DNA of 64,000 nucleotides from a virus, in IMG/VR virus record IMGVR_UViG_3300027969_003844, positions 41,200 through 105,199 of that record; one strand, written 5' to 3'. Shown here in pieces: positions 12,927-32,246 of the stretch; position 1 is the stretch's first letter; every line of letters begins with the position of its first letter. The notes beneath the pieces are model-generated. The model was not told the origin of the DNA, did no database searches, and saw only the letters and a program-made list of their open reading frames with translations. The position numbers and the translations under genes are program-made.

Positions 12927-12932
12927 AGTGTT

Positions 12933-12961
12933 ATTGTAGCATAATATTTATCTTAAGTCAA
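12933..12961 (-). promoter_or_regulatory. Promoter TTGACT-17-TACAAT, leaderless geometry
   Basis: Minus-strand TTGACT, 17-bp spacer, TACAAT, then AACACT and the ATG of the kinase gene. The predicted +1 falls on the start codon. Confidence 0.8.
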
Positions 12962-13002
12962 TAAATTTAAATGCCCAACTGCTATGTTAAAGTTAGTTTT
13001 AA

Positions 13003-13365
13003 TTAGCCAATATCCCAATACATCTTGTTATGCAATTGATAAAACAAGTCTTTTTTCAATTCTATCATATCATCAGGTGATATTCTATACTGGTGCCCAA
13101 TGCCATTATGATATACAGAAATCCTTACATACGCACATGGTATTCGTGGTTCTGGTGATTGCATTTTAAGTTGAACTAGCCAATAACTTCCGTTTATTTC
13201 TTTATCAAATCCTTTGCCAAGGATGCTATAGTTATCTAGCATCTCTTGTAATACCAGCGTAGGCAAGTTAAAGGTCTGAGCATACTGTTCGCTTACTTTA
13301 ATGGTAAGATCGCTAGTGCCTTTGTCTTTGAAAACGTAAAGCTTAAATGTTTTAGAAAATTCCAT
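13003..13365 (-). CDS. Hypothetical protein, 120 aa
   Basis: Not recognised. Begins MEFSKTFKLYVFKDKGTSD; alternating hydrophobic and polar strands suggest a beta-rich domain followed by a helical end. It lies 4 nt from the stop of the lipoprotein gene and probably shares its transcript. No clear ribosome-binding site is visible. Confidence 0.55.
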   Translation of the reverse strand: MEFSKTFKLYVFKDKGTSDLTIKVSEQYAQTFNLPTLVLQEMLDNYSILGKGFDKEINGSYWLVQLKMQSPEPRIPCAYVRISVYHNGIGHQYRISPDDMIELKKDLFYQLHNKMYWDIG

Positions 13366-13369
13366 AATA

Positions 13370-14503
13370 TTATTGCTTTACAAAGGTCAGGCCACCAAAA
13401 TCAGACATGATTGCTCCATTCCTTTCAATGATCCAATCAATCCAAGTTGAATATCCATCTCTGGGGTCAACAAAGGTAGGATTGGAATATACAACCGTGC
13501 TAGTTTTGTCAGTAACTGAAAACTTTTGTATCCACACTCCTTTGTATAAATCATTTGCATCTGCGGCAGTCCCGCCTGTTCTTAACACATATACAGAGTT
13601 TGTATTTTTAGAATACACAAAGTCTAAAATAATCCTGGCACCGTCAACTGCTGGAATTATCATTGTTGGTGTTCCAGTGAATTTGTTACTGCCAGGGTTT
13701 ATTTCAATGGCAGTTGGTTCAGCATATCCCCATTCAATTGCACCATATACCAGATCAAATTTGCCGTCATTGTTTACATCAATGGCTTCAATTTGAAATA
13801 CAGTTTTCTGTGTTGATGGTAATGCATATTCAGTTGAGCGAACAAACTTTCCAGTTTTATCATTTAGATAAACAACCAGTCCATTGAAGGTAGTGACAAT
13901 TACATCAGGATATCCATCGCTGTTAAAATCATTTGCGCTACCACCATGATAAAATCCAGTGTCGGAGTTTGATGTTGTTAAGTAGTCTGTTTTATATCTG
14001 CCATTGGATTGACTTAATACAATACGATTACGCTCGCCAGGAAAGGGCGGAGCATCATATCCGTGACAAACAATTATAAAGTCTAAAACACCATCTTGAT
14101 TGTAATCTGCAGGCAATACTTTTCTTGGATGAATACACATTGGGACTGCTTCATCAATTAAAGAGTTAGAGGACCATGTTCCGTTTGCTTGTTTCCATAG
14201 TGTCAATGTTGCAGGTGGTGAATTGCTGGCAGTGTGTTGATTCACTACATAATTGAGACTTGTGGTTATTAGTCCTGCTGTACCATCTGTATATTTAAAA
14301 AATGTTCGAGCATTTATCTGGCGTTGCAGTTGAAGTGAATCTACATAAAATCCTGGATTCTTTGAATTCTCATAAGAACTCAAACTGTACGTGATATTTT
14401 GCACAGGTGGCTGTACAGGTGGCGTAACAATAGTTGATCCGCCTCCACCACATGCGGTTAATACTACTGCCAGAGATCCAATTAAAAAATTACAAAGTTT
14501 CAT
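13370..14503 (-). CDS. Lipoprotein with FG-GAP/VCBS-like calcium repeats
   Basis: 377 residues. A signal peptide ends in lipobox LTAC followed by GGGGS, so the protein should be lipidated. Three Asp-rich loops, DYNQDGVLDFIIV, DFNSDGYPDVIV and DVNNDGKFDLVYG, mark a beta-propeller of FG-GAP/VCBS type with EF-hand-like calcium sites. Such proteins act in adhesion or bind surface molecules. A phage-encoded lipoprotein could alter the host surface, for example as superinfection exclusion, but that is inference. It has its own promoter. Confidence 0.75.
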   Translation of the reverse strand: MKLCNFLIGSLAVVLTACGGGGSTIVTPPVQPPVQNITYSLSSYENSKNPGFYVDSLQLQRQINARTFFKYTDGTAGLITTSLNYVVNQHTASNSPPATLTLWKQANGTWSSNSLIDEAVPMCIHPRKVLPADYNQDGVLDFIIVCHGYDAPPFPGERNRIVLSQSNGRYKTDYLTTSNSDTGFYHGGSANDFNSDGYPDVIVTTFNGLVVYLNDKTGKFVRSTEYALPSTQKTVFQIEAIDVNNDGKFDLVYGAIEWGYAEPTAIEINPGSNKFTGTPTMIIPAVDGARIILDFVYSKNTNSVYVLRTGGTAADANDLYKGVWIQKFSVTDKTSTVVYSNPTFVDPRDGYSTWIDWIIERNGAIMSDFGGLTFVKQ

Positions 14504-14533
14504 AAAATTACCTATTAAGAAAAACTTGACCTA

Positions 14534-14562
14534 ATTGTAGCAATTTATATGAAACTTGTCAA
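14534..14562 (-). promoter_or_regulatory. Sigma70-type promoter (TTGACA-17-TACAAT)
   Basis: Minus-strand TTGACA, 17-bp spacer, TACAAT. It lies immediately after the endonuclease stop codon and drives the lipoprotein gene. Confidence 0.8.
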
Positions 14563-14565
14563 TCT

Positions 14566-15381
14566 TTATTTGCAAGCGGCTCGTTTTGCGTTGGTCAATG
14601 CACCAAAATCAACGATCCACTCTTTTCCAACTTGGACCTCTTTGGCGTTTTTAGGAAATTCAAACTGGACCTTTGCATTGGCCATGATTTCTTTGATTGG
14701 CTTACGGAACACGGTCAGATCATTTCCCAAGTTTGGATATGGTACTGTGTGTGGGAATGCCCAACCTGCTACTTCGCCGGTAGTTTTGTTGATCACAATC
14801 TTATAATACCCGTGCGGCACAATTACTCCATTTCCAATTTGTTTGTCATTGTTATCATAGTAGGCACCAACATAAATGATAAATGTTTGTTTATATTGTA
14901 CCGCCCAACCGCGAACACTGGTTTCTAGTAATTTCCAAATTCCTCGATTTAATGATCCTGCTTGAGGATACATATTGGTCATTAAAAAACTTTCGTATTC
15001 AACTTGAGTATCCCAGCTTTGGTCGCCATCAGGAGTAGCATGTCCCTTATCATAACCAGTGCCTACATAGTCATCAGGACGAGCACCGTTTTTGATACTT
15101 TGGTCAGCAACAAAAGCATCAGTCCGAGGAACACATCCAATGGCATTCTGTGGCAATAGCTCATAGGTCACATACTGTGGTATCTTGGCTTCTGCATCGT
15201 AACCTACCAGGTACCCCTGGCGACAAATTGGTACTAATGTTTTTGTTGAATCAGGAAACCCAAATGGTGAATGTGCTTTGCAGGCCTTGAGTGGTAAAGG
15301 AGGACGTTGTGTCCATGCAACAGCTGGTTGTGTAAGTAGTGCCATTAGCAGTACACCAAACACAATAATAAATTTTTTCAT
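14566..15381 (-). CDS. Exported DNA/RNA non-specific endonuclease (NUC1)
   Basis: 271 residues. A clear signal peptide (MKKFIIVFGVLLMALLTQPAVA) leads into the NUC1 fold. The active site reads YDKGHATPDGD (residues 110-120) where the family usually has DRGH. MTNMYPQAGSLNRGIWKLLE supplies the metal-binding Asn. Arg-to-Lys at the second position of DRGH is conservative, so activity is likely. Exported nucleases degrade extracellular or periplasmic DNA and could block incoming competitor phage DNA. The paired Cys residues suggest disulfides. Confidence 0.85.
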   Translation of the reverse strand: MKKFIIVFGVLLMALLTQPAVAWTQRPPLPLKACKAHSPFGFPDSTKTLVPICRQGYLVGYDAEAKIPQYVTYELLPQNAIGCVPRTDAFVADQSIKNGARPDDYVGTGYDKGHATPDGDQSWDTQVEYESFLMTNMYPQAGSLNRGIWKLLETSVRGWAVQYKQTFIIYVGAYYDNNDKQIGNGVIVPHGYYKIVINKTTGEVAGWAFPHTVPYPNLGNDLTVFRKPIKEIMANAKVQFEFPKNAKEVQVGKEWIVDFGALTNAKRAACK

Positions 15382-15407
15382 AAAGGTTCCTTAAAAACAG
15401 TAGTTAT

Positions 15408-16868
15408 CTAAAATATTGAAATCTGATGCAGGTCTTGAAATTTTCTAGCATTTGCCCAGGTGTTGACCAAGGGCTCGCCCTTGATATTTAAACTGGTATT
15501 CATTAATACTGGACACCCACTTGCATCATACCATCTCTCTAGCAATTGTCTGAATACAGGGTTATCAAGACCATTGACTGTCTGAACACGGCTACTGTTA
15601 TCAACATGGCACACTCCCGGTAATATATCTGGTACCTTGCATTGAGCAACAAACTGCATGTAAGGACTAGATACAATTGGCATATCAAAATAATCAGCGG
15701 CATGTTCTTCTAAGATAGCAGGCGCAAACGGTCTAAATTGTTCGCGCTTTTTAATAGTATTCATTCTTGGCTTGGCTTCTTTGCCTCTAGGATCACATAA
15801 TAAACTACGATTGCCTAGTGCCCGTGGCCCAAACTCTGCACGACCATTTGCCACTGCCACCACTTCGCCTGCTAGAAGCTTTTTAACAATACCATCAATG
15901 TCTAATTCTCTATCAATGTTTGTACCCAGATATGGATGTTCCCATTTTAAATGTTGACCAGTATAAGCAGCCACGGCGCCAATTGCACTGCCAGCATCTC
16001 CGGGATTTGGCATTATCCATACATTATTGAATACCTTAGATTTTGCAATCCTACTGTTGGCAACACAATTAAGTGCAACACCGCCCATGAATACTAAATT
16101 TTCACTTGTGGTGTTCATACGCATGTTAATAACAGTTTCCATCAGGTAGTCTTCAACAATGCTTTGTACACATGCGGCAATGGTGAACTTATCAGCAGTC
16201 ACAGGAGGCTTCCACCACAAACAGCCCCTGTGCAAATTGTGTCTTAACTTAAACTTGGGTGCTGAAAATTCAATGAAGAATTCTTTTAATATTTCAGATT
16301 TTAGCAATTGATCAACATGTCCGTATGCTGCCATGCCCATAAGAATATATTCTTCCTCATTGGGTTTGAGTCCCAGGTACTGAGTAAATGCAGAATAAAA
16401 TAGGCCAATGCTGTCAGGATAACGCTTGCGCCATTTAGATTTTATCTTGTGGCCATGTCCTTCCCAAATGCTAACACTATCCCATTCTCCAATTGCATCA
16501 ACAACTAAGATCGCGGCGTTATCAAAGCCACTGGTATAATATCCTGCGGCTGCATGACTTTTATGGTGTTTACCATAATGCAAAGGTATGTTGTTAAGGC
16601 CAACACGTTTTAATTCTTCTTTGGCACTTTCGTAATACGGACGCTGACCAGCATAAAGATTACGTGTACTTTTTAGTAATGGGCTTTCGAACCAGACAAT
16701 GTCAGTGGGAGTACCATAATCAAACATTTCCTGTACCATGTCATAATTTAAAACACGGTCATTTTTATTTCTGCTGTACCGCTCTGCATGTCCAGCCCAT
16801 ACTATACGATTTCCGTTGATAAGAGCTAAACTGGCATCGTGATTTAATCCTGTTGCTCCTAGAATCAT
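15408..16868 (-). CDS. NodU/CmcH-family carbamoyltransferase
   Basis: 486 residues. The N-terminal ASKHA/Kae1-like half starts MILGATGLNHDASLALINGN, with HHKSHAAAGYYTSGF as the metal-binding His motif and VFMGGVALNCVANSRI. The C-terminal YrdC-like half has EFGPRALGNRSLLCDPR and FRPFAPAI. These enzymes transfer carbamoyl from carbamoyl phosphate to a hydroxyl group via carbamoyl-AMP, in Nod factors, antibiotics and modified nucleosides. It is the gene nearest the radical SAM cluster (1-nt gap) and is probably part of that pathway. Confidence 0.9.
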   Translation of the reverse strand: MILGATGLNHDASLALINGNRIVWAGHAERYSRNKNDRVLNYDMVQEMFDYGTPTDIVWFESPLLKSTRNLYAGQRPYYESAKEELKRVGLNNIPLHYGKHHKSHAAAGYYTSGFDNAAILVVDAIGEWDSVSIWEGHGHKIKSKWRKRYPDSIGLFYSAFTQYLGLKPNEEEYILMGMAAYGHVDQLLKSEILKEFFIEFSAPKFKLRHNLHRGCLWWKPPVTADKFTIAACVQSIVEDYLMETVINMRMNTTSENLVFMGGVALNCVANSRIAKSKVFNNVWIMPNPGDAGSAIGAVAAYTGQHLKWEHPYLGTNIDRELDIDGIVKKLLAGEVVAVANGRAEFGPRALGNRSLLCDPRGKEAKPRMNTIKKREQFRPFAPAILEEHAADYFDMPIVSSPYMQFVAQCKVPDILPGVCHVDNSSRVQTVNGLDNPVFRQLLERWYDASGCPVLMNTSLNIKGEPLVNTWANARKFQDLHQISIF

Positions 16869-16869
16869 G

Positions 16870-18942
16870 TTAAACTCTTTTCCATTTGCTTATTGAAATG
16901 TCTGCTCCGCAATGGCATCGTAGGCTATTGCAAATAACAGGATTAGATAATGTATTCCAATTAAGCTGGTCAAAATCCTTGACTGTTCCAATTACACCAC
17001 CCACATCACAATTGCCTCGTTTGATATGACCATTTTGATGAATGAACAGACTCTCTACACCAATGTTACAATTAAAATCGTAAAAGTTTGTTTGTCCTCT
17101 GTTAATTAATTCTTGTTCATTGTCAATGATTGCACGACTGCCATCACTGAATGTAGCAGTTGGGCTCCATGGTGGGAATGGACGATATATTGGATTAGTA
17201 ACAGAAATATTGTCAGGCGATGACCGTGTTTCGACTTGCTTAAAATTCTTGAAGAATTGATTTTGTTCTTCAGAATAATTAATTTTGGCCAACTTGGTTC
17301 TAGAACTACCGTATTGATCGTCGATATAAACTAGTTCAATTCTAGCAGTTGTAGTTTTCTTTGCTTGGTCGATAAACTCTAATGTTTCTTCCCAGTACAG
17401 TGGATCCATCATTATACGCAATGACACCATGGTTTGCATTGTGGCAATACGTATGCGATCTAAATAATCTTTGGCTGTGCCATTGGCAAATTCTTGTGCA
17501 GGATGAAAACTACATGCCGCATAGGTCAGATACTTAAAATTTTCTTTAATGAATCGAGGTGTTCTTGCCAGGTTAGTGGTAATGCCAACATTGCCACCCA
17601 AGCTATGTATCTTTTGAACCATTTGAGGGAAGAACGGGCTCATTGTTGGTTCCCCACCACTGAGTGAAAAATTAATGTACTTTCCATCCCAGTGCTCAAA
17701 CATCTTATCCAAGAAAGGTTCAATTTGTTCCCAATTAAACAAATGATTCTTTCCATTATGCAAAGACGATGGACAATATCTACAAGAATAATTACAGATA
17801 TCGTTAAGAATCCAAGTTACTATCACACGCTGTTCATTTTTAACTCCAACAATTTTTTTCCCTTGTACTGGGATTGGAAACTTCCATTGTGGGATTCTTG
17901 CTCTGGGATTTTCAATGCTTGAGTACATTTGAATATCGTCAACAATTTCAACATCCTGAATACTTCTAAATTTATTTAAATTAATGGTAATGCCAGTCAC
18001 TGGAGAATAGATTTTTTCAAGCTGAACATCAACCAATCGTCCAATGCCCATAAAACCATCTCTATTATCTGGGTTGCGCCACTGGTAATCTAAATGCTTG
18101 TCCTCATCAAGTTCTTTGAACTTTTTCCAGTCATTGGTCAATGTGTACGGATCATAGGAGTCGTGGATTAGATAGCATAGTATTTCATTAGACCAAGATT
18201 CTTGACGAGTAATAGAATTGTTATCAACTGCCACTCCATCCCCGTCGGCCACAACCCGGCTTAGATTTTTACCTTCTCCGTTGTAGCCCAGTACAAGATC
18301 ACCAAATCTTAAATGCGACATAAAACTGGCGGCATCTTCGTTGGTGATTTCAAAATCACGGCGTGGATTAAAACTAATTAATAAATTTGCTTCAGTTGAC
18401 GATGTTGTTTCAATTGTGGGCTTCTCATCCGACGCAGATGCTGCCAATGTTTCTGCAATGGTAATGGCATCATTTAGTTGATTAAATGTTGTGTGGAAGT
18501 CTTCGTTGAATGTAATACCTGGCCATTGTAATGCTTCTGGACTATCTGCAGGGATTCGTTGATACGCAGTATCCCACCATTTTTTAGATAACTTTTCTGC
18601 TACTCTTCCTTGATACTCATCAAATTGTTTATACAAATAATCAATAGCAGCCTGGTCGTATTTTTTAAAAATTGTCAATGGCTTGTCATAGAAAAGATTA
18701 ATCTTACGAATGATGTTGGTCAGACGCTCTTCAAATGCCATGTCTTTGGTTAAAAGAGTACGAGTAAATTTAATACGTTTATCCCTGAAACTTTTTTCTC
18801 CAAATTTCATATCTTCCAGTAACTGGCACCATTTAGCAGACAGCTTGGTATTATACAATCTGTAATACAGATCATAACATTCCCAGTTTTCTGGATTTAC
18901 CAATGTAATCCTAACATTTTTATTGTCAATAAACTTTCCCAT
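16870..18942 (-). CDS. Radical SAM protein with fused partner domain and C-terminal cysteine cluster
   Basis: 690 residues from an ATG with GAGG upstream. Residues 1-305 match two stand-alone proteins in this cluster (KLSAKWCQLL; FGDLVLGYNGEGKNLSRVV; WSNEILCYLIHDS). The radical SAM domain begins C383-x3-C387-x2-C390 (CNYSCRYC), with FSLSGGEPTM as the GGE motif. A C-terminal cysteine set (NCNIGVES, KRGNCDVGG, CNSLRCHCG) resembles auxiliary-cluster regions. The fusion implies that the partner family acts directly with radical SAM proteins. Substrate unknown. Confidence 0.85.
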   Translation of the reverse strand: MGKFIDNKNVRITLVNPENWECYDLYYRLYNTKLSAKWCQLLEDMKFGEKSFRDKRIKFTRTLLTKDMAFEERLTNIIRKINLFYDKPLTIFKKYDQAAIDYLYKQFDEYQGRVAEKLSKKWWDTAYQRIPADSPEALQWPGITFNEDFHTTFNQLNDAITIAETLAASASDEKPTIETTSSTEANLLISFNPRRDFEITNEDAASFMSHLRFGDLVLGYNGEGKNLSRVVADGDGVAVDNNSITRQESWSNEILCYLIHDSYDPYTLTNDWKKFKELDEDKHLDYQWRNPDNRDGFMGIGRLVDVQLEKIYSPVTGITINLNKFRSIQDVEIVDDIQMYSSIENPRARIPQWKFPIPVQGKKIVGVKNEQRVIVTWILNDICNYSCRYCPSSLHNGKNHLFNWEQIEPFLDKMFEHWDGKYINFSLSGGEPTMSPFFPQMVQKIHSLGGNVGITTNLARTPRFIKENFKYLTYAACSFHPAQEFANGTAKDYLDRIRIATMQTMVSLRIMMDPLYWEETLEFIDQAKKTTTARIELVYIDDQYGSSRTKLAKINYSEEQNQFFKNFKQVETRSSPDNISVTNPIYRPFPPWSPTATFSDGSRAIIDNEQELINRGQTNFYDFNCNIGVESLFIHQNGHIKRGNCDVGGVIGTVKDFDQLNWNTLSNPVICNSLRCHCGADISISKWKRV

Positions 18943-18958
18943 TTTAGCCTCTAAAATT

Positions 18959-20191
18959 TTATATATCAAGTAATTTTGTGTAGTCTGTGCCATGCAGGCG
19001 ATCAAGACCCTGTAGGTAATCCAGTGTTTGTGGGTACAAGTGACTCCAGTCTTCCGAATTCATAAATGTAATTAATCCAGCAAGTCTTTGCATTTGTACG
19101 TTCTTGGGATAACTTGCAAAATATGTTTCTAGTTTTTCCGTTACACGTTTTTTCATTTCTATTGGCAATACCTTGACACAAAGATATTGTGGCCAATGCA
19201 ATGTACCTGGATAGAATATGCCACCAATATTACTTTTACGAACCTTGTCAAGATTTAGGTTTAATAACCATTCGGACATTTCTGGCAACCAATTTATATT
19301 CAATGCTTGAACAGTGCATAACACTTTGACAATGATATTGTCTGGAGTGTCATTGTATAATTTTAAATTACGTTCAACCACTTCCCACTTGGCCGGACGA
19401 CGAATGTAATCATTGACCCAATCGTAACCATCAATACTGAGCATTAGTTCTACTTGCTTAAAGCTTTTCCAAAGCTCAACAATTTCTGGATTGTGTATAG
19501 TACAATTGGTATGGTAACGAAGTGTGATATTTTTAGCTAAATCACGTGCAACCAACTGTTCGATGATTGACTTGTGTTCTTTGATGTACAGTGGTTCGCC
19601 ACCACCAAAAATAATGTGTTGTATAGAGCTTGCATTTTCAAAGAAATCATCCCAAAATACTGGATCTTTATACCACTCAAACTGTTCGGCGGCATAGTTT
19701 TCAATTTTATATTTCCACTCATGTCTTGCGTCAGTTTCTAATGTTTCACTGAGTGTTTTTGCGTCCTTGACCCATTTGCTCGAGTCCTGTGGCCGACACA
19801 TTACACATTGTAGATTACATGTATTACCAAGTCGTAAATCTAGTGTAATCAAATCATGATCAACACGACCATTGCGGCGTGTACTATCAACTAGACCATC
19901 TAGGTACTCTGCATCCAAGTGCTTGTACCAGTATTGATTTTCGTTTTGCCTGTGACTTTTGATACCAGCAGATTCTTCTTTGTAACAAGTGGTACATGCA
20001 GGGAACTCACGTCCATTTAGCATTGCCAGTCTGGCTTCTGCAAAATGACTACTGTTCCAAATCTGTGACCAATTTGATTTATTTAGATTTAAGTTTGAGG
20101 CCTTGGCCACACAACATAACAATGCTGTACCATCATTATAAGTTGCCGCATGTATCCAAGGTAGAATACAAAAAGTTTTAGATTTATCCAT
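18959..20191 (-). CDS. Radical SAM protein with N-terminal twitch-type cysteines (CC class)
   Basis: 410 residues. The N-terminal auxiliary-cluster cysteines are C8 (FCILPW), C26-C27 (LLCCVAK) and C66-x2-C69. The SAM cluster motif is C125-x3-C129-x2-C132 (CNLQCVMC), followed by IIFGGGEPLY. This matches the twitch domain-containing radical SAM family known from phages and marine bacteria, whose reactions are undescribed. It overlaps the next upstream radical SAM gene by 8 nt. Confidence 0.9.
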   Translation of the reverse strand: MDKSKTFCILPWIHAATYNDGTALLCCVAKASNLNLNKSNWSQIWNSSHFAEARLAMLNGREFPACTTCYKEESAGIKSHRQNENQYWYKHLDAEYLDGLVDSTRRNGRVDHDLITLDLRLGNTCNLQCVMCRPQDSSKWVKDAKTLSETLETDARHEWKYKIENYAAEQFEWYKDPVFWDDFFENASSIQHIIFGGGEPLYIKEHKSIIEQLVARDLAKNITLRYHTNCTIHNPEIVELWKSFKQVELMLSIDGYDWVNDYIRRPAKWEVVERNLKLYNDTPDNIIVKVLCTVQALNINWLPEMSEWLLNLNLDKVRKSNIGGIFYPGTLHWPQYLCVKVLPIEMKKRVTEKLETYFASYPKNVQMQRLAGLITFMNSEDWSHLYPQTLDYLQGLDRLHGTDYTKLLDI

Positions 20192-21482
20192 TGATCAATT
20201 CTGCTATTCTGCTATCAAGTACTGTGACATCTTGTTCCCTGCTTTTGTCCAGGCTTTTTGTATATGTGCGTAAACGTTGCAATTGTTCTTCCCAGTCATC
20301 GGCTCTTGGTTGTTGTAATAGACCAATTATACCATTAACACTATTACGGGTTAATTCATGTACATTCTTAGGCATCTGATTGTCTCGATAATCCATTAGT
20401 AATTGACACGCTTTGGCTTTAAGATCGTCAGGTAATATGTTTACATTGAGATGATAAGGATGATAATTTATAAGCAGGTCAACAAAAATATCTTTATTGT
20501 GTTTTTTGTTGAGCTCGTCTACCCATAACAACGTTTCAACTAGATTAAAAACATTATAAACCTGCACCGTTGGAGTCACACCTAATTTGACATTTGATAG
20601 CTCTGCAATCTTCTCTACGTTTGCACTCAACTGACTCCACTTACTTGGCGCACGAATGTAATCATTTACAGCACCAATTCCGTCTAAGCTGGCATTAATA
20701 TTAATTTCATCAAATTGACTGATAATATCAAGAAACTTTTTATTAACGTTGGTACAGTTTGTATTAAAAAATAATAAAATATCTTTGCGACCTTGGTCAA
20801 TACAAGATTGCATAAATTTAAAATTGTTGCCAATAAGTGTTGGCTCGCCTCCGGTCATATAGACTTTCTTTAATTCTGGAATTAATGCGATAATCTGGTC
20901 CCATAACACATCGCTTTCAAACCATTCCTGTTGATCCATGACTGATATAGGAAACTTTCCAAATGCTTTACGCCAAACTTGTCCGTATGCTGGGTCTGTT
21001 TCTGTAAGCTCTAAGTGTTCCTTGGCAATCTGACTAGAATTCCATGGGTTGCACATTCTACATTTGAGATTGCACAAGTTGCCTAATCGCAAATCCAAAT
21101 ACACCAAATCAGAATTAACTACGCCACCGTGTATTTTTGCATAACGAACACGTTTGGCCAATTCTTCTTCGCCTAATCTCCAGGCCCATTCATTGTTTGC
21201 ATGTATTCTATTACTGTCTCGACCCGAATCTTCTTGAAGATAACAGACTTTACAACCTTCAATGTTATCACCATTGATCATTGCAGTACGAATATCACGC
21301 ATGTCTTGTCCGTTCCATGCATGTTCAATAAACTGATCCTGGATAGTAAAGAATTTACCATCCTCTTTTTTAAGTTTGTTGGCCGCGCCTTTCACCATGC
21401 AACAATACCGTACAGTTGCATCTGTATTGACCATTAGGCTAACAAAAGGAATAGCGCAAAACGTTTTTGAAATTGGTTTCAT
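20184..21482 (-). CDS. Radical SAM protein with N-terminal twitch-type cysteines (CC class)
   Basis: 432 residues. C9 (FCAIPF), C27-C28 (YCCMVK) and C77-x2-C80 form the N-terminal set. C137-x3-C141-x2-C144 (CNLKCRMC) is the SAM cluster motif, and VYMTGGEPTL follows. It is first in its transcript: a 72-nt gap upstream holds a GATAAGTA box 28 nt before the start. It shares layout, but not close identity, with the neighbouring paralogues, suggesting an old duplication rather than recent copying. Confidence 0.9.
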   Translation of the reverse strand: MKPISKTFCAIPFVSLMVNTDATVRYCCMVKGAANKLKKEDGKFFTIQDQFIEHAWNGQDMRDIRTAMINGDNIEGCKVCYLQEDSGRDSNRIHANNEWAWRLGEEELAKRVRYAKIHGGVVNSDLVYLDLRLGNLCNLKCRMCNPWNSSQIAKEHLELTETDPAYGQVWRKAFGKFPISVMDQQEWFESDVLWDQIIALIPELKKVYMTGGEPTLIGNNFKFMQSCIDQGRKDILLFFNTNCTNVNKKFLDIISQFDEININASLDGIGAVNDYIRAPSKWSQLSANVEKIAELSNVKLGVTPTVQVYNVFNLVETLLWVDELNKKHNKDIFVDLLINYHPYHLNVNILPDDLKAKACQLLMDYRDNQMPKNVHELTRNSVNGIIGLLQQPRADDWEEQLQRLRTYTKSLDKSREQDVTVLDSRIAELING

Positions 21483-21509
21483 TAAACTAAGCTTTAAAGA
21501 TTTGTCTTT

Positions 21510-21517
21510 TACTTATC
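21510..21517 (-). promoter_or_regulatory. GATAAGTA box before a radical SAM operon
   Basis: Exact GATAAGTA on the minus strand, in context TCGATAAGTA. The same 10-mer precedes the 530-aa radical SAM gene. It is a candidate late-promoter-like element. Confidence 0.4.
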
Positions 21518-21554
21518 GACAAACTTTATTACGAGTTAGCCAGTAAGATGACAA

Positions 21555-23048
21555 TTATGATGTGCGCGAATCTTCAACAGCAATTTGGTCTTGCCATGTA
21601 TAATCAAGATTCTTGGTTACAATTACATTATTATCAAAATCAACAAGTTCAAGCTTGCAAACATCGTCGTACTCAAACAATTCACGCATGAAATTTTCAG
21701 GATCCGGATCAGACCAATCATCGCGTACAATACGTGCCACTGGAATTTTTCCAATGCTGGTAAACTTACTGTCTGGATCAACGTTTCTTTCGCGTAACCA
21801 TGGGAACATTTTTCTGTTTAAATTGTCAATAAGTTGTGTTTGTAATGCATAACTGTGTTCATGCAAAAACGTAATATTGCATTCGCCACTTAGGTAGCGT
21901 AACCCACTGATGTTCTCATCATGAATTTCTCCGTCTTTGTCATAATACGCTTCCAATGGAGTTTTGCCAAGTTGGCAATAGTGCAAGAGTACATCGCCAA
22001 AGAATTCATATTGTGTAAAATTATCAAAATCGCTTTCAACAAATTTATAACGCTTGACTGGCATAGCAGGCAAAAATACATGGGCATTCCAATACCCTTG
22101 TCCCAATGAGTTTTGTCTATTGCCTTCTATTTCATGACACAAGTTATTGAGCTGTCGAATTGCAAACATAATAGGTAATGGCGAATTGGTAAAGTATCTT
22201 GAAGGATTCCATACCTGCCCAATTAGTAATTCAAAATGATGATGGATCTCATTGAGAATTTGTTGATCTAGAGTGATAGAATCAAACACCTGTGTAATAT
22301 TATAATATGGACGAGTATCTTCATTGCTGCCATCAAAATACTCATTGATTTTACCAATGTACTTGTTTAACTCGTTACACAGGCCTGGAATGTTTCTGGC
22401 AATTGAACTATCATCTCTATACGTCCAGTTCTGTAGCATAAAGTACTTTTCAAACTTGGCTTCGTCAACGCTTAGATAATCATTGTGACAACACCTGGCC
22501 CACTTTTGTGCAATAAAAGAAGTATTAATTTTAAATCGTACTTTCTTTGTTGCGCCGGTATCAACTGCTCTAAAGGTCAACTGAAATTCATTGTATTTTG
22601 TATTTTCGTATGCACTGCCAATGGCTTCGACAATTGCACCATCTGTGGTAATTTCCGTACTAAACAATCTAGTGCGTCGTACACGGTCAACATGTTCATA
22701 ATCTACCAACCAAAGAAAATTGTTGACATGACATTGAGATTCTAAATCATCAAAGAATTCTTGACTGTCGGCTATAAAGAAAGATTGATATATGCTGTTG
22801 CAGTATTTCCAAAATTCATCAAAGACCTGCCGTTCGTTGAAGTAATGAATTAAATTATCAACTTTGCCATCGGGATTTGCCAATGCTTCTTTAATAAAGT
22901 TAATTTCACTTTCAGCATCACATAGAAAAATTAAACGAGTGTTTGAATCTCGTTGTAGTGTTGCAAATGCTAATAGTCCAGGCAGAGACACACCATAAAC
23001 ATAATAGTTCTCAACATAGGTTTCGGGATTTGTAAATTGTGTTTGCAT
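21555..23048 (-). CDS. Uncharacterised radical-SAM-associated protein, two shared domains
   Basis: 497 residues. The N-terminal ~140 residues (RLIFLCDAESEINFIKEAL; NNFLWLVDYEHV) resemble the C-terminal half of the 461-aa protein in this cluster. The remainder (VRFKINTSFIAQKWARCC; LNEIHHHFELLIG; YEFFGDVLLHYCQLGKT) matches the 313-aa protein and the N-terminus of the 690-aa radical SAM fusion. There is no cysteine motif and no known catalytic signature. It is probably a partner or scaffold of the radical SAM enzymes. Confidence 0.75.
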   Translation of the reverse strand: MQTQFTNPETYVENYYVYGVSLPGLLAFATLQRDSNTRLIFLCDAESEINFIKEALANPDGKVDNLIHYFNERQVFDEFWKYCNSIYQSFFIADSQEFFDDLESQCHVNNFLWLVDYEHVDRVRRTRLFSTEITTDGAIVEAIGSAYENTKYNEFQLTFRAVDTGATKKVRFKINTSFIAQKWARCCHNDYLSVDEAKFEKYFMLQNWTYRDDSSIARNIPGLCNELNKYIGKINEYFDGSNEDTRPYYNITQVFDSITLDQQILNEIHHHFELLIGQVWNPSRYFTNSPLPIMFAIRQLNNLCHEIEGNRQNSLGQGYWNAHVFLPAMPVKRYKFVESDFDNFTQYEFFGDVLLHYCQLGKTPLEAYYDKDGEIHDENISGLRYLSGECNITFLHEHSYALQTQLIDNLNRKMFPWLRERNVDPDSKFTSIGKIPVARIVRDDWSDPDPENFMRELFEYDDVCKLELVDFDNNVIVTKNLDYTWQDQIAVEDSRTS

Positions 23049-23049
23049 G

Positions 23050-23151
23050 TTAGTAAATGAAAGGATCCTGTTTTTTCAACTCTTTCAGACGCCTTTTGTA
23101 TCTGCGCTCGGCCTTGATTCTTTCAATGATGTTTTTAATAAAATTCCACAT
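23050..23151 (-). CDS. Small basic protein ending DPFIY, 33 aa
   Basis: MWNFIKNIIERIKAERRYKR begins an amphipathic basic helix that ends with KKQDPFIY. AGGAAA lies 8 nt before the ATG. Short basic proteins with this exact ending recur in phages, from memory, so it is likely a real phage gene. It has no leader/core layout or Cys/Ser/Thr core, so a peptide substrate of the radical SAM enzymes is unlikely. The longer reading upstream is rejected. Confidence 0.6.
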   Translation of the reverse strand: MWNFIKNIIERIKAERRYKRRLKELKKQDPFIY

Positions 23152-23161
23152 TGTATATTTC

Positions 23162-24052
23162 CTATAATGAATATTTAGAAACAAAATAATTAAATGCATT
23201 GTCGGCTGCAATATCGTGTATATATTCCATGACATGGCCACCTGCACAGGCTACTGGTAATTTCTTATCTTGTTTTCCTGCAATATCTTCAAGGTCTATT
23301 AGATAATTAATATCCAATTCTTTAAAAAGCTGTTGAATTGACCAATTTATTGTTGATGGTGATTCCCTTGTTCCTGCTAGTTCAACTAGCCAGTCTGGTG
23401 CCGTTTCAGCAACCGATTTTGCAAAATACAAGTCAATTCCCTTGGCTTGGCAAAATGTTTTTAATAGTAGATTAGACATCAACCACTTGTGTAATCTTGC
23501 ATCTTCGTGTTCGTACATTATTGTGGTTTTGCGTATGGCATCAATTTGACTACTGTTGTATGATATTTCGTTGCTTAACAAAATAGAACTCCAATAATTG
23601 TGTGATTCTTCAAAGTATTGAATCCTATTAACACTGGTCGTTCCAACCAAGAAAATTATTTTTTTACCCTGTGTACGTCCATGTTTTGTTTCGTGCAGGT
23701 ATTGGTCAATGATTTCTCTAGTAATCCATTCTTGACTTGCACCACCACTTGCATGATTATGTACAGTACAGTTTACACCAGGACGGCTAGACAATCTCAT
23801 TCCAATTTTAGCAGGATATGCCCTACTATAATTTTCAATGATTTGTTGTTGCTGTTGATCTGCTGTAAGTTTGATAGTATTTTTACGATTAACCCATGCC
23901 TTGACCAATGCAGGTCTATTAATTTTATGAGTGGTGCCTCGCCACTCGCTGAAAGTTATGTCATCATGATCAATTTTGGGGTAAAATAAATCATCAGACA
24001 ATTCTTCACCAGCAGTAAAACTATCACCACATGCAAAAATTACCATTTCCAT
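23162..24052 (-). CDS. SGNH/GDSL-like hydrolase
   Basis: 296 residues. Block I is VIFACGDSFTAGEE, with Ser in GDSF. NHASGGASQEWITREI gives the block II Gly region, and KIIFLVGTTSVNRIQY stands where GxND is expected. GGHVMEYIHDIAADNAF near the end carries the candidate catalytic His. Block III lacks the usual Asn, so activity is not certain. SGNH enzymes commonly act as carbohydrate or lipid esterases or acyltransferases. It is embedded in the radical SAM cluster. Confidence 0.7.
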   Translation of the reverse strand: MEMVIFACGDSFTAGEELSDDLFYPKIDHDDITFSEWRGTTHKINRPALVKAWVNRKNTIKLTADQQQQQIIENYSRAYPAKIGMRLSSRPGVNCTVHNHASGGASQEWITREIIDQYLHETKHGRTQGKKIIFLVGTTSVNRIQYFEESHNYWSSILLSNEISYNSSQIDAIRKTTIMYEHEDARLHKWLMSNLLLKTFCQAKGIDLYFAKSVAETAPDWLVELAGTRESPSTINWSIQQLFKELDINYLIDLEDIAGKQDKKLPVACAGGHVMEYIHDIAADNAFNYFVSKYSL

Positions 24053-24054
24053 AA

Positions 24055-24792
24055 TTACATTATTGCCTTTAAACTATCTAACACAATTTGATTAAAAGGA
24101 TCACGGGCGCCACCATGGCTAATCATGTGAATTCTAGGAGTATTGCTATTGTTCCATACACTGTGCAAGTTTCCAATATCTACCAAGCAGGCATTGCCTT
24201 CATTCTTAAAAGGAACATAACCCTTGCCTTCCATTTTGAAATTACAGCCTTCTGGATTGTTCAATGCAACATTGATTGGTAGTAGAAAATGTTCGTTACG
24301 ATCCTTGTGCGGTTGAATATACCCTTGTGGGTCTAACCACATATAACGTAGTCTATGATATCTATGGTTAGGAAATATGTCACGAAAGTATCGTGTGGTT
24401 TCGGGACAACGTTCTGTTATCTCGCCACACCAATGGTAATTGATATCGTTGATTGTTTTACCCTTGTTGTCATCGTATGCTTCCCAGTGACCAGTTCTGT
24501 CCCAAGCTTCACCGTGTAAGCAAATACTTTTCCAACCGCGATTGGCATATTCGGGGTTTTCATCTGGATGTGTTCTGTGCATTTGAAATAGGTCTTGCAT
24601 GGCAAATGCTTCGCGAAGCATGTCTGCGAAGGGAGCACCAGGAAGAATTAGTGGCAAGTAAGGCCAGCCACTTTTCATTATGATCCAATCAACTAGTTCA
24701 TGTTCATGCTCAAACTTTGGCAATTGAACAGTTTTAAAATCCATGGTCCATGGACTATCATTGAAAAATTCTACAATTGCTTTTGGTATCAT
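24055..24792 (-). CDS. Aspartyl/asparaginyl beta-hydroxylase-like dioxygenase
   Basis: 245 residues from an ATG that overlaps the upstream stop (ATGA). The cupin core reads YMWLDPQGYIQPHKDRN (HxD iron ligands), then LPINVALNNPEGCNF, then DIGNLHSVWNNSNTPRIHMI with the distal His and the 2-oxoglutarate-binding Arg. This is the Asp_Arg_Hydrox form, a Fe(II)/2-oxoglutarate hydroxylase. Substrates of the family are Asp/Asn side chains or lipids. It is a second oxidative enzyme type within the radical SAM cluster. Confidence 0.82.
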   Translation of the reverse strand: MIPKAIVEFFNDSPWTMDFKTVQLPKFEHEHELVDWIIMKSGWPYLPLILPGAPFADMLREAFAMQDLFQMHRTHPDENPEYANRGWKSICLHGEAWDRTGHWEAYDDNKGKTINDINYHWCGEITERCPETTRYFRDIFPNHRYHRLRYMWLDPQGYIQPHKDRNEHFLLPINVALNNPEGCNFKMEGKGYVPFKNEGNACLVDIGNLHSVWNNSNTPRIHMISHGGARDPFNQIVLDSLKAIM

Positions 24793-26174
24793 TTTATTAC
24801 ATTCCCTATATGTGTCCAACCTGGCGTCCCAGTGCTGGTTGTTCCACAAATTTGCAGGCTGGTGTTGTTTAATTTAAGTTCATTTATAAATGTATCGTAC
24901 ACTGACTTTAACCATGCTGGTTTAAAGTGGCGAAGGCTTGCTTCTGTATAGAAACTGTTACTAAACCAAATTAAGTTATTACCTTGATGTTGATTCATGT
25001 CTGCAATTAATTCACTGCGCTCATAATACAGGTTAGTCTTCAGGAATCTATGCTCAAGGGCGCGGTATCGGTTCCATAAATCTAACCAAGCGGCTTCGCC
25101 ACCAAATACATCCATTGTTTTTTCCCATTGGTCAGTGTATTCTTTTTTCCCAAACCAAATTGGACTAAACGTTGGATCAACATGAGCAATATAATGTTGA
25201 ATAATATCCAAATAATTACGGCCGTCCCAATTCTTTAGTAACCATTCTTTAAATGCCAGTGCAGAATCACTGTAATCAAAATATATAACTCGTGTGGTTG
25301 AGTCCCACTTGCATTGATCTAAGAACTGAATTGGCTTGAAGCCTGCAGCCACACAATACAAATTGTCTAGCTTGGTCGATTTGTCATATGCAATATAATC
25401 GCGATTCATTGAATCAGTATTAAACACATAAACTGAGCCCTGAAAACCAGAAAAGTCTGTTATTCTTACGTAGTCGCGCTGATTAGGTTCAACTGGTTCT
25501 ATTGTAGAATTGCCATCTAAAATCTTTTCAAGATCAGTTCCTACTTCTGGATAGAAGTGCATTTTAAATTTTCTAAGCTCTTCGGAAAAATTACCAATGC
25601 TAAATCCATGTGATAGTAATGTACTAGCAAGATTCCAACCTTCTCTTACAGGGCCAGTGTATTGTCTTGTTTCAGTTGTAGGTAAAATATAAAATGGAGT
25701 ATATCCATCGTGAAAGTCTTCTGTACTACGATTTACCAATGGTAGTGTTACATTATCAACGTTTGTATGATTACCCCATGATGGGCTTCCAACATGCCTC
25801 CAATGGTTTAAATTGATCAATGCACATTGATTATGCAAGGAGTAAAATCCTTGCTCTTTATTCTCTGGATTATCTTCCAGTATGTGTGCTAGAACACTAT
25901 AATTATTATCTTCAGCATACTTAATCATGGCATCTACTAAAAATACATCATAGCTACGATAACCATATGCTACAATATAAAGATAGTCTCCATCTAGTGA
26001 TCTGGCCGCATCAATGATTGAATCTATTGTGTTGCCAACAATCAATTCATCGATTGGTATATTACGCATTGTCAATTGCATAGATACAGCAAAGTCGGTG
26101 ATAGCTCTGACATGGTCTTGATAACCCTGTGATCTATCATTGATCTGGTTTAAAAGTGCAAATTTAATTTTCAT
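24789..26174 (-). CDS. Uncharacterised radical-SAM-associated protein (WSN family)
   Basis: 461 residues. The N-terminal half (DYLYIVAYGYRSYD; HILEDN; GFYSLHNQCALINLNHW; FHDGYTPFYI) looks like a Rossmann-type glycosyltransferase-like fold, though no motif proves it. The C-terminal half (RVIYFDYSDSALAFKEWLL, NWDG, NLIWFSNSFY) resembles the N-terminus of the 497-aa neighbour and a family seen, by memory, in environmental phages. 'FDYS ... NLIWFSN' could suggest a methyltransferase-like fold. Function unknown. Confidence 0.65.
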   Translation of the reverse strand: MKIKFALLNQINDRSQGYQDHVRAITDFAVSMQLTMRNIPIDELIVGNTIDSIIDAARSLDGDYLYIVAYGYRSYDVFLVDAMIKYAEDNNYSVLAHILEDNPENKEQGFYSLHNQCALINLNHWRHVGSPSWGNHTNVDNVTLPLVNRSTEDFHDGYTPFYILPTTETRQYTGPVREGWNLASTLLSHGFSIGNFSEELRKFKMHFYPEVGTDLEKILDGNSTIEPVEPNQRDYVRITDFSGFQGSVYVFNTDSMNRDYIAYDKSTKLDNLYCVAAGFKPIQFLDQCKWDSTTRVIYFDYSDSALAFKEWLLKNWDGRNYLDIIQHYIAHVDPTFSPIWFGKKEYTDQWEKTMDVFGGEAAWLDLWNRYRALEHRFLKTNLYYERSELIADMNQHQGNNLIWFSNSFYTEASLRHFKPAWLKSVYDTFINELKLNNTSLQICGTTSTGTPGWTHIGNVIK

Positions 26175-26177
26175 TGT

Positions 26178-27119
26178 TTACTCTATTAGTCTAACGGCAG
26201 AAACTTTGCCTAGCTCGAGAATTTCGTTTACTTCGGTGTACGTTACTTTATCTCTATTTACTAGCTGTCCCAGTAATGGTCTTGCCACTGCTTGATTTTC
26301 TGGCAATGACATATTTACGTACTCGTCTAGTTCATTATCATGTACCCATTTCTTTACTTCTTCTAAGTGCATTTTTGAAGCACCTGGGTATGGTTCTCTA
26401 TTTCTTTCTGAGAAACTCAGTACTACTTCATTGCTAATAGTACGTTGTGGTCTAATCATATTTTTCTTGACTAATTCAACATCGTTATCAACAAAGCAAT
26501 GGTAAATGTTCTTTCCAACTGTATGATAGCCTAACAATAAGTCACCAAATGATACGTCATGTAAAAAGTATTCGTACAGCGACGGATCAGTGATTTCTTC
26601 TACATGAGTTCCAGTAACAATACCCGCGGATGGACTTGCATGTAAAAAGAAACCTGCACTTATGTCACCACCGTAGTTGTCAATCATTGCTTCAAGGATG
26701 TGAATGTCAACATTTAATCTAATTAAAGGATCATAACCTACAATTAGTCCATCAAGTTCTTCTTCAAACCGATGAAATTCATAGTGTAAATAATTCAATA
26801 TCTGTCGATTGTCTCTGGTCTCATCAAACTCTTCTGGCATGTCAATGAAATCAACTTGAATGTATTCTCCAGAATTTGCTTCGTCTACTAACTTTTTCAT
26901 GCCCTTCCAAATAGCTTTGATTTTTTCCTTGGTCGGCGCACTTGCTATCCACTGATTTTCAAAAATATGGCAATCAGGTTGAGCCATTACCCAACGTACA
27001 CGCTCTAGCCATTTTTCAGCAATGGGTGTGTCTGCAATTTGAAATCGTAATGTTTTTGTTACTTCACCGTCGGTAAAGTCGATTTCATAAAATTTATCTA
27101 AGAAGTTATATGTTGTCAT
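26178..27119 (-). CDS. Stand-alone radical SAM partner protein
   Basis: 313 residues. Shared blocks with the 690-aa fusion and the 497-aa protein are LRFQIADTPIAEKWLERV, LNYLHYEFHRFEEELDG, VSFGDLLLGYHTVGKNIYH and ISNEVVLSFSERN. There is no Cys cluster or catalytic signature. Because the same domain is fused to a radical SAM protein 7 kb away, it is best read as a substrate-binding or partner subunit. Its start overlaps the end of the 418-aa radical SAM gene by 14 nt. Confidence 0.75.
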   Translation of the reverse strand: MTTYNFLDKFYEIDFTDGEVTKTLRFQIADTPIAEKWLERVRWVMAQPDCHIFENQWIASAPTKEKIKAIWKGMKKLVDEANSGEYIQVDFIDMPEEFDETRDNRQILNYLHYEFHRFEEELDGLIVGYDPLIRLNVDIHILEAMIDNYGGDISAGFFLHASPSAGIVTGTHVEEITDPSLYEYFLHDVSFGDLLLGYHTVGKNIYHCFVDNDVELVKKNMIRPQRTISNEVVLSFSERNREPYPGASKMHLEEVKKWVHDNELDEYVNMSLPENQAVARPLLGQLVNRDKVTYTEVNEILELGKVSAVRLIE

Positions 27120-28362
27120 TTAAGTATCCAAAAATAGCAATCTTGCTCATGTCCTTGTTTCTACGTTTTGCAAACTGCTCAAAGAAAGACAGGTAATCTT
27201 TTGCCAGCGGGACTTGATTAGGTGCTTCGCGAACGTCAAGTAATGTCAACAGTCTTTTGTAACGATCTGTTTCGTGACTGTTTAATTGAGGTAATATATC
27301 TAAAAACACTGTTTCATATTTGTTGTGGTAATAGTCAAGCAATTTTTGATCTAAAATCTTGAAGCTTTGGAACTCAGGGTAAGTTAAAAAGTTAAAGTCA
27401 ACTGACACAGGTGTACGCATGGTTTGTCGCAAATTGATTATATCTTCTAAGAAGTTATCAAAGTTTTGTAAACACATTGCACTGATTGTGGTCATTACAA
27501 ATATATGGTCAAGCCCGGCGTCGTCTAAGAATTTAATATTGTCAAGCCACTCTCGATAGTTCATTCCATCTCGCAGTATTTCTGCAACATGGTCAGCACT
27601 TTCGTTACTGGTGTATATAGAAACCTGTTTAATACCTTTGATTTTTTCTTTGAATCTTTCTAATACCAATGGCTTCTGACAGAGATTAGAATTAATTGCA
27701 ATTTTAACATTGGGATTCTTAGTACGAACCTTGTCTAACAAATCAAATGTTTGTTCGTGTAATAACGGCTCTCCACCAGTGATACGAATAATATCAATGT
27801 CGTCAACTACAGTATCAAACCAGGCCCAGAACAAGTCAAAGTCAACTGGAGTATCTTGGTATTGCTCTATTGGTCGTTGGTAATGTTTACGAGCATCTGT
27901 TGTAATGTTTTGATATACTCCGTTGTTTTTGATATCATTTGCCCATTGTGAACTAAAGTCTGCATTACAGTAAGAACAACCTAAATTGCAAGTCTTCTGA
28001 AACGCTAGCTCTAGTACCTTAGGTTTAAAGTTAAAATTAGGATCTAAATACTCAGCTGGAGTTAGATGATCAGGATAGCTAACTGATTTGAATTCTCTGT
28101 CGCTAGTTAATCCTTGTGCTTCCAGCTTCCAGCAATAGCTACAAGGGTCTGGCTTTTCACCAGCAAGCATTGATTTTTGCTGAGTACGCTTCTCGTATGT
28201 ATTATAAAAAGTCTCAACAGTTGATCCAGTGCTGTGAAAAGGATTATGATGGCAACTGGCAATTTTACCACTATACAACCAAATTGTTGCTTCGTGAAAC
28301 TTTGCCATGCAAAAGGTATTGCTGGTATTGGCCCATAAGTTTTCTAGTTGTATTTTTTGCAT
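27106..28362 (-). CDS. Radical SAM protein with SCHH-type N-terminal cysteines (CHH class)
   Basis: 418 residues. C18 (FCMAKFHEATIWL), C37 followed by His-His (ASCHHNPFH) and C74-x2-C77 (CSYCWKLE) replace the Cys-Cys form of the other paralogues. The SAM cluster motif is C125-x3-C129-x2-C132 (CNLGCSYC) with IRITGGEPLL. INSNL and a TSNES strand follow. Its stop/start overlaps the next radical SAM gene by one base (TAATG), so the genes are co-translated. Confidence 0.9.
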   Translation of the reverse strand: MQKIQLENLWANTSNTFCMAKFHEATIWLYSGKIASCHHNPFHSTGSTVETFYNTYEKRTQQKSMLAGEKPDPCSYCWKLEAQGLTSDREFKSVSYPDHLTPAEYLDPNFNFKPKVLELAFQKTCNLGCSYCNADFSSQWANDIKNNGVYQNITTDARKHYQRPIEQYQDTPVDFDLFWAWFDTVVDDIDIIRITGGEPLLHEQTFDLLDKVRTKNPNVKIAINSNLCQKPLVLERFKEKIKGIKQVSIYTSNESADHVAEILRDGMNYREWLDNIKFLDDAGLDHIFVMTTISAMCLQNFDNFLEDIINLRQTMRTPVSVDFNFLTYPEFQSFKILDQKLLDYYHNKYETVFLDILPQLNSHETDRYKRLLTLLDVREAPNQVPLAKDYLSFFEQFAKRRNKDMSKIAIFGYLNDNI

Positions 28363-29693
28363 TATTGGCCTGTAATGAATGGTTTCATGTCTATATATTC
28401 AGGAAAGACCTCAAAGAAATCTTCTTTTCTATTTTTGTCAAGCCACAACTCGCGATTCCATCCACCTCGTATCCAATCGTCTGTTCTAGCAGGGACTTTT
28501 AATAGATCTATTGCACTTCGATACCCACTTGCGGCACCGTCAAGAGATCTATTCCATTGTATATCAGACTCAGCATCTGACGTGACACGTTTAAAAGTTT
28601 CTAACCAGGCAATTTGCTCGTTGTACAGTGCAGTCAGATTGGCCTTGTGATTGTCGGGTAAGTTAGAAATACACCAGTGTTCTGGACCAAATAATAAGTT
28701 AATAATAATATCACCAGGTTGAATATAACTAAGATTGACCCATTCCTTATGGAACTCTGCAATGTTATATGCTGTCATCATGCTTAAAGTTGCACCAATG
28801 ACAAATTTAACATGTGGCACTTCGGCTATCATTCGTTTTCTATTTTCAATGACCTGTTGCCATGACAAATTTTTACGTGCATATTCGCCTCGACCATAGC
28901 TGCCATCTAGGCTAGCAGAAACTGTTACTCTGCTAAACTTTTTCCAGTATTCAATTACATCAAACTTGGCATGAGTTAACTTGCTGAAATTTGTATTATA
29001 AAAAATATCAATATCTGTGTTTCCTAGGTCCAAGAAGTAATCTAAGATCTCATAATGCTGTGGCATGATTAGAGGCTCGCCGCCTGCAAAATAAATTCGA
29101 TGACAACTTCTCAAATTCTGTTTTAAACTTTCAACAGGCACGCCGGCCTTTCTAAATCTAGTTAAATTGTCATTGACTATAATTCCAGCATCAAGCATTG
29201 CTTGTTCTTCAGGAAACCAAGTCGAGCTATATTCTGGACCACAAGATCTGCATCTTAAATTGCAGGTGTTATCAAATCTTACATCTAGATAATTTATCTC
29301 AGGTTCGGCAACTGTATAATCTTCATTGACAGAGTTGCGAATATTATCATCAACTTTCCAAGTATTCATCCATCCCATCATTGCTTGACGCATACTATGA
29401 GTATTAACTGCTTCGCCTTTCCAGCAGTAGTTACATTGCGAATTTTTTACACCGTTCAATAAGTCTTTGCGTAGTTCTTTAAAAGACTCGCTGTTGTATG
29501 CATTGACAATGCTTTCGTTTGTTGTACCTTCAATCCTGGACAATGATCTTCTAGTGGCTGATTTATGCACACAACATGCCGCTAAACTACCATCTGTGTG
29601 AATGTAGTAAGAGTTAAATGGTGCTGGACAAAATGCACCATTGTTCTTGATCTTGTCCCATTCTGCATCTGTAAATTTTAATTTTTTAGTCAT
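28362..29693 (-). CDS. Radical SAM protein with N-terminal twitch-type cysteines (CC class)
   Basis: 443 residues from MTKKLKF; this start overlaps the upstream stop by 8 nt. C22 (FCPAPF), C40-C41 (AACCVHK) and C87-x2-C90 (CNYCWK) form the auxiliary set. C144-x3-C148-x2-C151 (CNLRCRSC) is the SAM motif and IYFAGGEPLI follows. It contains the 'YNTNFSKL' strand seen also in the 421-aa and 429-aa paralogues, marking a closer subgroup. Confidence 0.9.
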   Translation of the reverse strand: MTKKLKFTDAEWDKIKNNGAFCPAPFNSYYIHTDGSLAACCVHKSATRRSLSRIEGTTNESIVNAYNSESFKELRKDLLNGVKNSQCNYCWKGEAVNTHSMRQAMMGWMNTWKVDDNIRNSVNEDYTVAEPEINYLDVRFDNTCNLRCRSCGPEYSSTWFPEEQAMLDAGIIVNDNLTRFRKAGVPVESLKQNLRSCHRIYFAGGEPLIMPQHYEILDYFLDLGNTDIDIFYNTNFSKLTHAKFDVIEYWKKFSRVTVSASLDGSYGRGEYARKNLSWQQVIENRKRMIAEVPHVKFVIGATLSMMTAYNIAEFHKEWVNLSYIQPGDIIINLLFGPEHWCISNLPDNHKANLTALYNEQIAWLETFKRVTSDAESDIQWNRSLDGAASGYRSAIDLLKVPARTDDWIRGGWNRELWLDKNRKEDFFEVFPEYIDMKPFITGQ

Positions 29694-32245: not shown

Positions 32246-32246
32246 A

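Follow-up and report, generated by a model that had tools for sequence, protein, structure and literature searches.

A phage protein module that occurs beside and fused to radical-SAM enzymes

We analysed a window of 64,000 nucleotides, positions 41,200 to 105,199 of the IMG/VR virus record IMGVR_UViG_3300027969_003844 (record G000, 105,199 bases), focusing on three of its proteins, P690, P497 and P313. Between about 40 and 15 kb, the minus strand of the window carries a tight run of genes, many of which overlap their neighbours by a few bases, as if read as one transcript. This run holds ten stand-alone radical S-adenosylmethionine (radical-SAM) genes together with P690 (16870..18942), P497 (21555..23048), P313 (26178..27119), a 2-oxoglutarate (2OG)-Fe(II) enzyme, a GDSFTAGE-motif protein, a further protein, P461, and a NodU-like carbamoyltransferase; the record as a whole has 12 radical-SAM matches. 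A first-pass annotation, made from the DNA letters alone, had placed the three genes at these positions and proposed that their products share a family. Both points hold: as judged by profile comparison, P313 is homologous to P497 (residues ~150-488) and to P690 (residues 1 to ~353), the three forming one family. Window coordinates below refer to the minus strand.

P313 is a stand-alone member of the family, and the other two proteins are composite. P690 joins a family domain (residues 1 to ~353; 17884..18942, from the hmmsearch domain envelope) to a radical-SAM core (residues 370-541; 17320..17835, with Pfam and PHROG matches) and a Cys-rich C-terminal region; its reading frame opens at an ATG, and an upstream TTG start would give 711 residues. 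The radical-SAM part matches PF04055 over residues 379-503 with 37.5 bits (cut-off 29.5) and has a CxxxCxxC motif at C383/C387/C390. In P497 the family domain (21585..22601, from the hmmsearch envelope and conserved residues) follows a Rossmann-like domain of residues 1-145 (22614..23048, assigned with VIA-align), so that the earlier statement that most of P497 belongs to the family applies to residues ~150-488 and not to this separate N-terminal domain.

By BLASTP, P497 matched P313 with E = 9e-9 over 249 columns and P690 matched P313 with E = 1.4e-6 (database E value). Profile-profile comparison, which the first-pass annotation had suggested as a check, aligned all three pairs: the P497 and P313 families with a probability of 98.1 (E = 1.3e-13, 287 columns), the P313 family and the P690 N terminus with 98.0 (E = 2e-13, 222 columns), and the P497 family and the P690 N terminus with 92 (E = 6e-7). 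A profile built without P690 recovered it at E = 1e-15, with all other proteins of the phage above E = 0.04, so the likeness is not due to chance. For each of P313, P497 and P690, a collinear alignment over the whole module was obtained with a profile not trained on the tested protein. The P690 fusion is genuine and not a sequencing artefact, because it is kept in a 689-residue ortholog from a second phage (L002), with which P690 shares 63% identity from end to end. The family had also been described as lacking cysteines, which is incorrect: there are two in P313, ten in P497 and three in the P690 N terminus, none of them conserved across the family.

A maximum-likelihood tree of 38 non-redundant members separated 26 canonical from 12 divergent proteins with support of 100/100 for the split. 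Canonical members share the motifs NxxHHHFExLIGQxW, NNxxHExE, YxQLGKxxxEAxxDxD and NISGxRYxSGEF, corresponding in P497 to the conserved residues N266, H269, H270, E273, N301, H305, E308, Y357, Q359, G361, K362, D372, N379 and E389. The divergent members, among them P313, P690 and copies like these in L003, L004, L023, L026 and L028, keep the frame of these motifs and have lost parts of them. Where H269 is lost, H305 is lost too (P690, L003 8505, L023 8023 and L004 8415), and the L002 ortholog of P690 retains both. Because divergent copies lose the two histidines as a pair, this pattern suggests that H269 and H305 work together, with the paired loss representing only two or three independent events at most. 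We infer that canonical members represent the ancestral state. For the canonical copy a catalytic or metal-binding function is quite plausible, and a non-catalytic role of the divergent copies would fit their incomplete canonical set. The first-pass view that the family has no known active site is therefore correct insofar as no database match exists, but overlooks the strongly conserved set of polar, His and Glu residues in canonical members.

The divergent branch is closely tied to radical-SAM genes. Directly upstream of P690 lies a twitch-type radical-SAM gene (18959..20191; 369.6 bits against NF033640), a second one adjoins P497 (20184..21482; 359.7 bits), and P313 overlaps by 14 bases, and is coupled to, a third (27106..28362; 258.4 bits); all three pass the NF033640 cut-off of 170 bits, and the radical-SAM genes of the run that were compared with NCBIfam models are all twitch-type. 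Over eight non-redundant loci, eight of nine divergent copies had a radical-SAM gene as immediate neighbour, compared with 17 of 194 other genes (9%; Fisher P = 1e-7, a value that ignores the shared ancestry of these partly related loci and overstates the case). Most of the divergent-copy/radical-SAM junctions overlap, by 1-17 bases. At the same loci, three of nine canonical copies had such a neighbour. Of the 13 records that contain radical-SAM genes, seven have a family member within 1.5 kb of such a gene, where shifting of positions gave an expectation of 3.3 (P = 0.012).

Canonical genes keep more varied company. In three groups their immediate neighbour is a 2OG-Fe(II) oxygenase gene (L030, with a TauD-like enzyme; L033/L039/L043; and L031/L089), some canonical genes are found within runs of sugar-modification genes, UDP-glucose dehydrogenase is among their neighbours, and others stand beside terminase or rIIA genes; in L006-L011 the gene sits amid terminase and tail genes. 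Because canonical genes are so often found in these surroundings, it is chiefly the divergent branch that is tied to radical-SAM genes, and the physical partnership with radical-SAM proteins put forward in the first-pass annotation is well supported for that branch and not for the family as a whole, with carrier, scaffold and modified substrate as candidate roles.

Downstream of P690 is the NodU-like carbamoyltransferase (15408..16868; PF16861, E = 5e-53; PF02543, E = 2e-46). Between P497 and P313 lie the GDSFTAGE-motif protein (23162..24052), which is SGNH/GDSL-like by motif only and had no family match over cut-off in Pfam, PHROGs or NCBIfam; an aspartyl/asparaginyl beta-hydroxylase-like 2OG-Fe(II) enzyme (24055..24849; PF05118, E = 3.8e-12); and P461 (24789..26174), which has no Pfam or other family match, is related by blastp (E = 2e-6) to a 766-residue protein of L003, and resembles in its C-terminal half the N-terminal domain of P497 and of the fused relatives of P497. 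Six more radical-SAM genes (28362-29708, 29686-30915, 30902-32257, 32247-33641, 33641-35233 and 35292-36587) follow the one coupled to P313 and extend to 36587. Elsewhere in the window, the phage encodes an IscA-type carrier (52326-53016; PF01521, E = 1e-18) and an IscU scaffold (53044-53973; PF01592, E = 4e-52), beside a radical-SAM gene. Sulfotransferase-like and kinase/nucleotidyltransferase-like genes, recognized from first residues and motifs only, occur both at 58166-59763 of the window and at 12262-18088 (plus strand) of L028, another radical-SAM-rich phage, where a carbamoyltransferase-like gene recognized in the same way completes a picture like that of a biosynthetic island.

Structure prediction, also proposed at the outset, was informative for P497 and not for P690. 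The AlphaFold2 model of P497, built from 28 alignment rows, is confident (predicted local distance difference test (pLDDT) 88.6, predicted template modelling score (pTM) 0.89) and has the module as a beta-hairpin, four helices (178-192, 220-237, 262-276 and 291-311) and a mixed sheet. Helices 262-276 and 291-311 are successive, so the conserved His and Glu residues would sit on successive helices, as considered for a DinB/hemerythrin-like arrangement; Pfam gave no match to such a family. For P690, a model from family rows alone reached a pLDDT of 58.8, too poor for reading domain contacts. A fold search of the PDB with the whole P497 model gave no match at E <= 0.001, and further comparison with the PDB matched the Rossmann-like N terminus only, the best VIA-align hit being nicotinamide N-methyltransferase (Z = 7.8 over 132 residues), tied with others such as glucose-6-phosphate dehydrogenase; a Z under 8 may reflect merely a common arrangement. 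As the search was dominated by this N-terminal domain, the missing match for the module is no evidence of a new fold. In a viral structure library the P497 model had ten matches below E = 0.001, all to unnamed phage proteins, one of them from Atu_ph07.

The module had no match in Pfam, PHROGs or NCBIfam, nor among PDB sequences. In two profile scans it turned up on more than 50 IMG/VR contigs, and a canonical-profile scan of 84,980 cellular (bacterial and archaeal) genomes found none, although short conserved patterns were used and distant members may escape. Among annotated phages, tblastn gave no match with P497 or its L012 and L008 relatives and only weak radical-SAM matches with P690, which as a query likewise returned no viral locus. 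The family is apparently restricted to viruses, those of bacteria, and seems previously unnamed, a search of open-access papers having returned no description of it. Unrelated domains of several kinds are attached to its module: radical SAM in P690, Rossmann-like in P497, L003, L004 and L023, and, in L025 (8334-9950, plus strand), a C-terminal domain of 240 residues with a kinase-like motif (DYHLGN...VIDFDD) and no match in Pfam or among PDB sequences.

Cultured phages contain probable relatives. In the 490-kb genome of Agrobacterium phage Atu_ph07, AUZ94948 (117995-118897) matched the P497 model by Foldseek with E = 3.9e-9 and a probability of 1.00. It was chosen by fold alone and not by context, and radical-SAM genes flank it: the genome has only four radical-SAM matches, all of them within 116.6-123.0 kb (less than 7 kb), around AUZ94948. 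Sinorhizobium phage Phosso has the same arrangement, with XYS97442 in a radical-SAM operon, and the AUZ94948 and XYS97442 pair aligned with the P313 family profile at E = 1e-5 (probability 82). By hhalign alone, AUZ94948 ranked second to fifth among 132 Atu_ph07 open reading frames (ORFs). Because sequence by itself would not single it out, we call the relation probable: similarity is very low, and the assignment draws on the Foldseek match and the gene context.

Two kinds of tailed proteins were noted in passing. A pattern scan of viral contigs yielded 33 ORFs ending exactly in CHxSCHxSCHxSR[GSA]RR, for proteins of 172-306 residues with differing bodies (for example L129 16119-17009, minus strand; L130 4856-5776, plus strand; and others in L131-L186, such as L140 3311-3886, L150 517-1110 and L158 2680-3450). 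A radical-SAM gene is on the same stretch for 32 of the 33 and directly beside, on the same strand, for 27, as a rule within an operon that holds 3-5 radical-SAM genes and lies near tail-fibre-like genes. The shared ending has the look of a peptide tail that is modified by radical-SAM enzymes on a phage protein; a literature search for the tail string found no paper containing it, and a profile search of these operons found no member of the module family. In Atu_ph07, the annotated start of AUZ94946 (L109 16000-16911, minus strand) is too late, and the 304-residue ORF contains the radical-SAM motif CNFRCSFC. Within the window, a search for Cys/His-rich substrate-like C termini gave no convincing candidate. 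Two genomes with a canonical member encode proteins of ~495 residues (L043 17222-18712 and L039 16452-17933, both minus strand) with a Cys/Trp/Tyr-rich C-terminal tail, CYCPWSYCGNYCYDNTC, and without a family match.

The most likely reading, held at about even odds, is that the module is an adaptor or substrate-presenting domain whose divergent copies serve radical-SAM enzymes in phage modification islands. The starting form would be the canonical module (~300-340 residues), a predicted hairpin, helices and mixed sheet with a conserved polar core, which would have been duplicated in phages that gained radical-SAM gene clusters. Divergent copies would then have become dedicated radical-SAM partners, either as a translationally coupled neighbour (P313) or in the same chain (P690), and the module would hold a shared acceptor, such as a virion protein, peptide or glycan intermediate, and bring it to the modifying enzyme. 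The occurrence of free and fused forms and the overlapping genes lead us to infer physical contact between divergent copies and radical-SAM enzymes. An adaptor that recognizes a common acceptor would best explain why one module is joined to several different enzymes, and its presence on the Rossmann-like domain of P497 and on the L025 domain is more in keeping with an adaptor or recognition function than with a substrate made for one enzyme. The carbamoyltransferase, 2OG enzyme and sulfotransferase-like genes around it suggest that a glycan, a small molecule or a virion protein is being decorated. The identity of the presented molecule, and presentation rather than catalysis as the job of the module, are speculative.

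Several points weigh against an adaptor. The excess of adjacency over all records is modest (7 of 13 versus 3.3) and fades at larger distances, canonical members often have no radical-SAM gene nearby (G005, G006, G013, G014, G015, G017 and G018), the radical-SAM genes are themselves clustered so that neighbours within one cluster share history, the poor P690 model leaves its domain contacts unreadable, and there is no known substrate. In addition, polar residues are deeply conserved among canonical members, which is more suggestive of an enzyme than of a mere adaptor. The module could itself be an enzyme or a cofactor- or metal-binding protein, with H269, H270 and E273 plus H305 and E308 forming a site in a helical bundle and the divergent copies being pseudo-enzymes or of changed specificity. 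We regard this as rather unlikely. In its favour, N266, H269, F272, E273, G277, N301, H305, E308, Y357, G361, K362, D372 and E389 are near-invariant across very diverse phages, the His/Glu-bearing helices are consecutive in the model, the module stands alone in many phages and the two histidines vanish as a pair in four copies, but those few independent losses limit the argument, and the module part matched no enzyme family or, in the whole-P497 search, solved fold.

It is improbable that adjacency is just a by-product of gene-rich modification islands, with an unrelated role for the family and an incidental P690 fusion; the widely differing neighbours of canonical members (terminase, rIIA, UDP-glucose dehydrogenase) and the small excess over shuffled positions for the family as a whole agree with such a by-product, whereas the near-constant and mostly overlapping contact of divergent copies with radical-SAM genes, the fusion conserved in a second phage and the same pattern around a distant relative in a cultured phage do not. 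Very improbable, finally, is that the enzymes encoded next to the module (radical SAM, 2OG-Fe(II) oxygenases, carbamoyl- and sulfotransferase-like) act on it, either as their substrate or as a part of the virion that they decorate, despite these neighbours and the place of the L006-L011 gene: a substrate does not need fusion to an enzyme or to other domains, the module has no repeated or low-complexity modifiable tail, and in Atu_ph07 and Phosso the better candidate is another protein, whose tail CHxSCHASCHxSRSRR is constant. Joint loss of H269 and H305 also counts for the adaptor reading, being what would be expected of copies freed from a catalytic or metal-binding role. It is possible, if doubtful, that duplication of an ancestral His/Glu-dependent viral protein was followed by loss of its site, and that the protein turned into an obligate subunit directing radical-SAM enzymes to targets peculiar to the phage. 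It would thereby form a new class of partner for radical-SAM enzymes, with no relation to known recognition elements.

A partner family fused or coupled to radical-SAM enzymes would offer a handle, for example in pull-downs, on the targets that these phage enzymes modify. With a probable relative in a compact radical-SAM operon, Atu_ph07 (on Agrobacterium C58) and Phosso (on Sinorhizobium) bring the question within reach of bench experiments.

Some T4-like and jumbo phages are rich in radical-SAM genes. PqqD-like recognition elements of ribosomally synthesized and post-translationally modified peptides (RiPPs) are winged-helix domains of ~90 residues that occur beside or fused to radical-SAM maturases and often escape sequence searches. 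The present module is likewise a partner found both free and fused, a comparison of working principle only: it has ~340 residues, no leader-peptide substrate was seen in the window, and Pfam gave no PqqD match for the three proteins, although such domains are easily missed by sequence. The neighbouring genes of the window are clear members of NF033640 (N_Twi_rSAM, the twitch domain-containing radical SAM subfamily; 258-370 bits), whereas P690, with 23.2 bits over residues 378-472 only, falls below the cut-off and is not a member, its N-terminal part being a new module in place of the twitch domain. AUZ94948 and XYS97442 resemble the family in their radical-SAM operon and profile match to the P313 family, AUZ94948 also in its fold match to P497, and differ in that their operon includes the CHxSC-tail protein, of which none was seen in the record of the window. 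T4-like phages rich in radical-SAM genes and bearing Fe-S assembly genes are already known from work on marine phages (Nishimura et al. 2017, PMC5332604), in which one 183-kb genome was reported to encode an A-type carrier and to have 12 radical-SAM genes, the passages of that paper on these genes mentioning no partner protein family or fusion. Record G000 resembles it in its 12 radical-SAM matches and its IscU- and IscA-type genes, and the module is a new family within a known type of arrangement, a radical-SAM enzyme with a partner domain.

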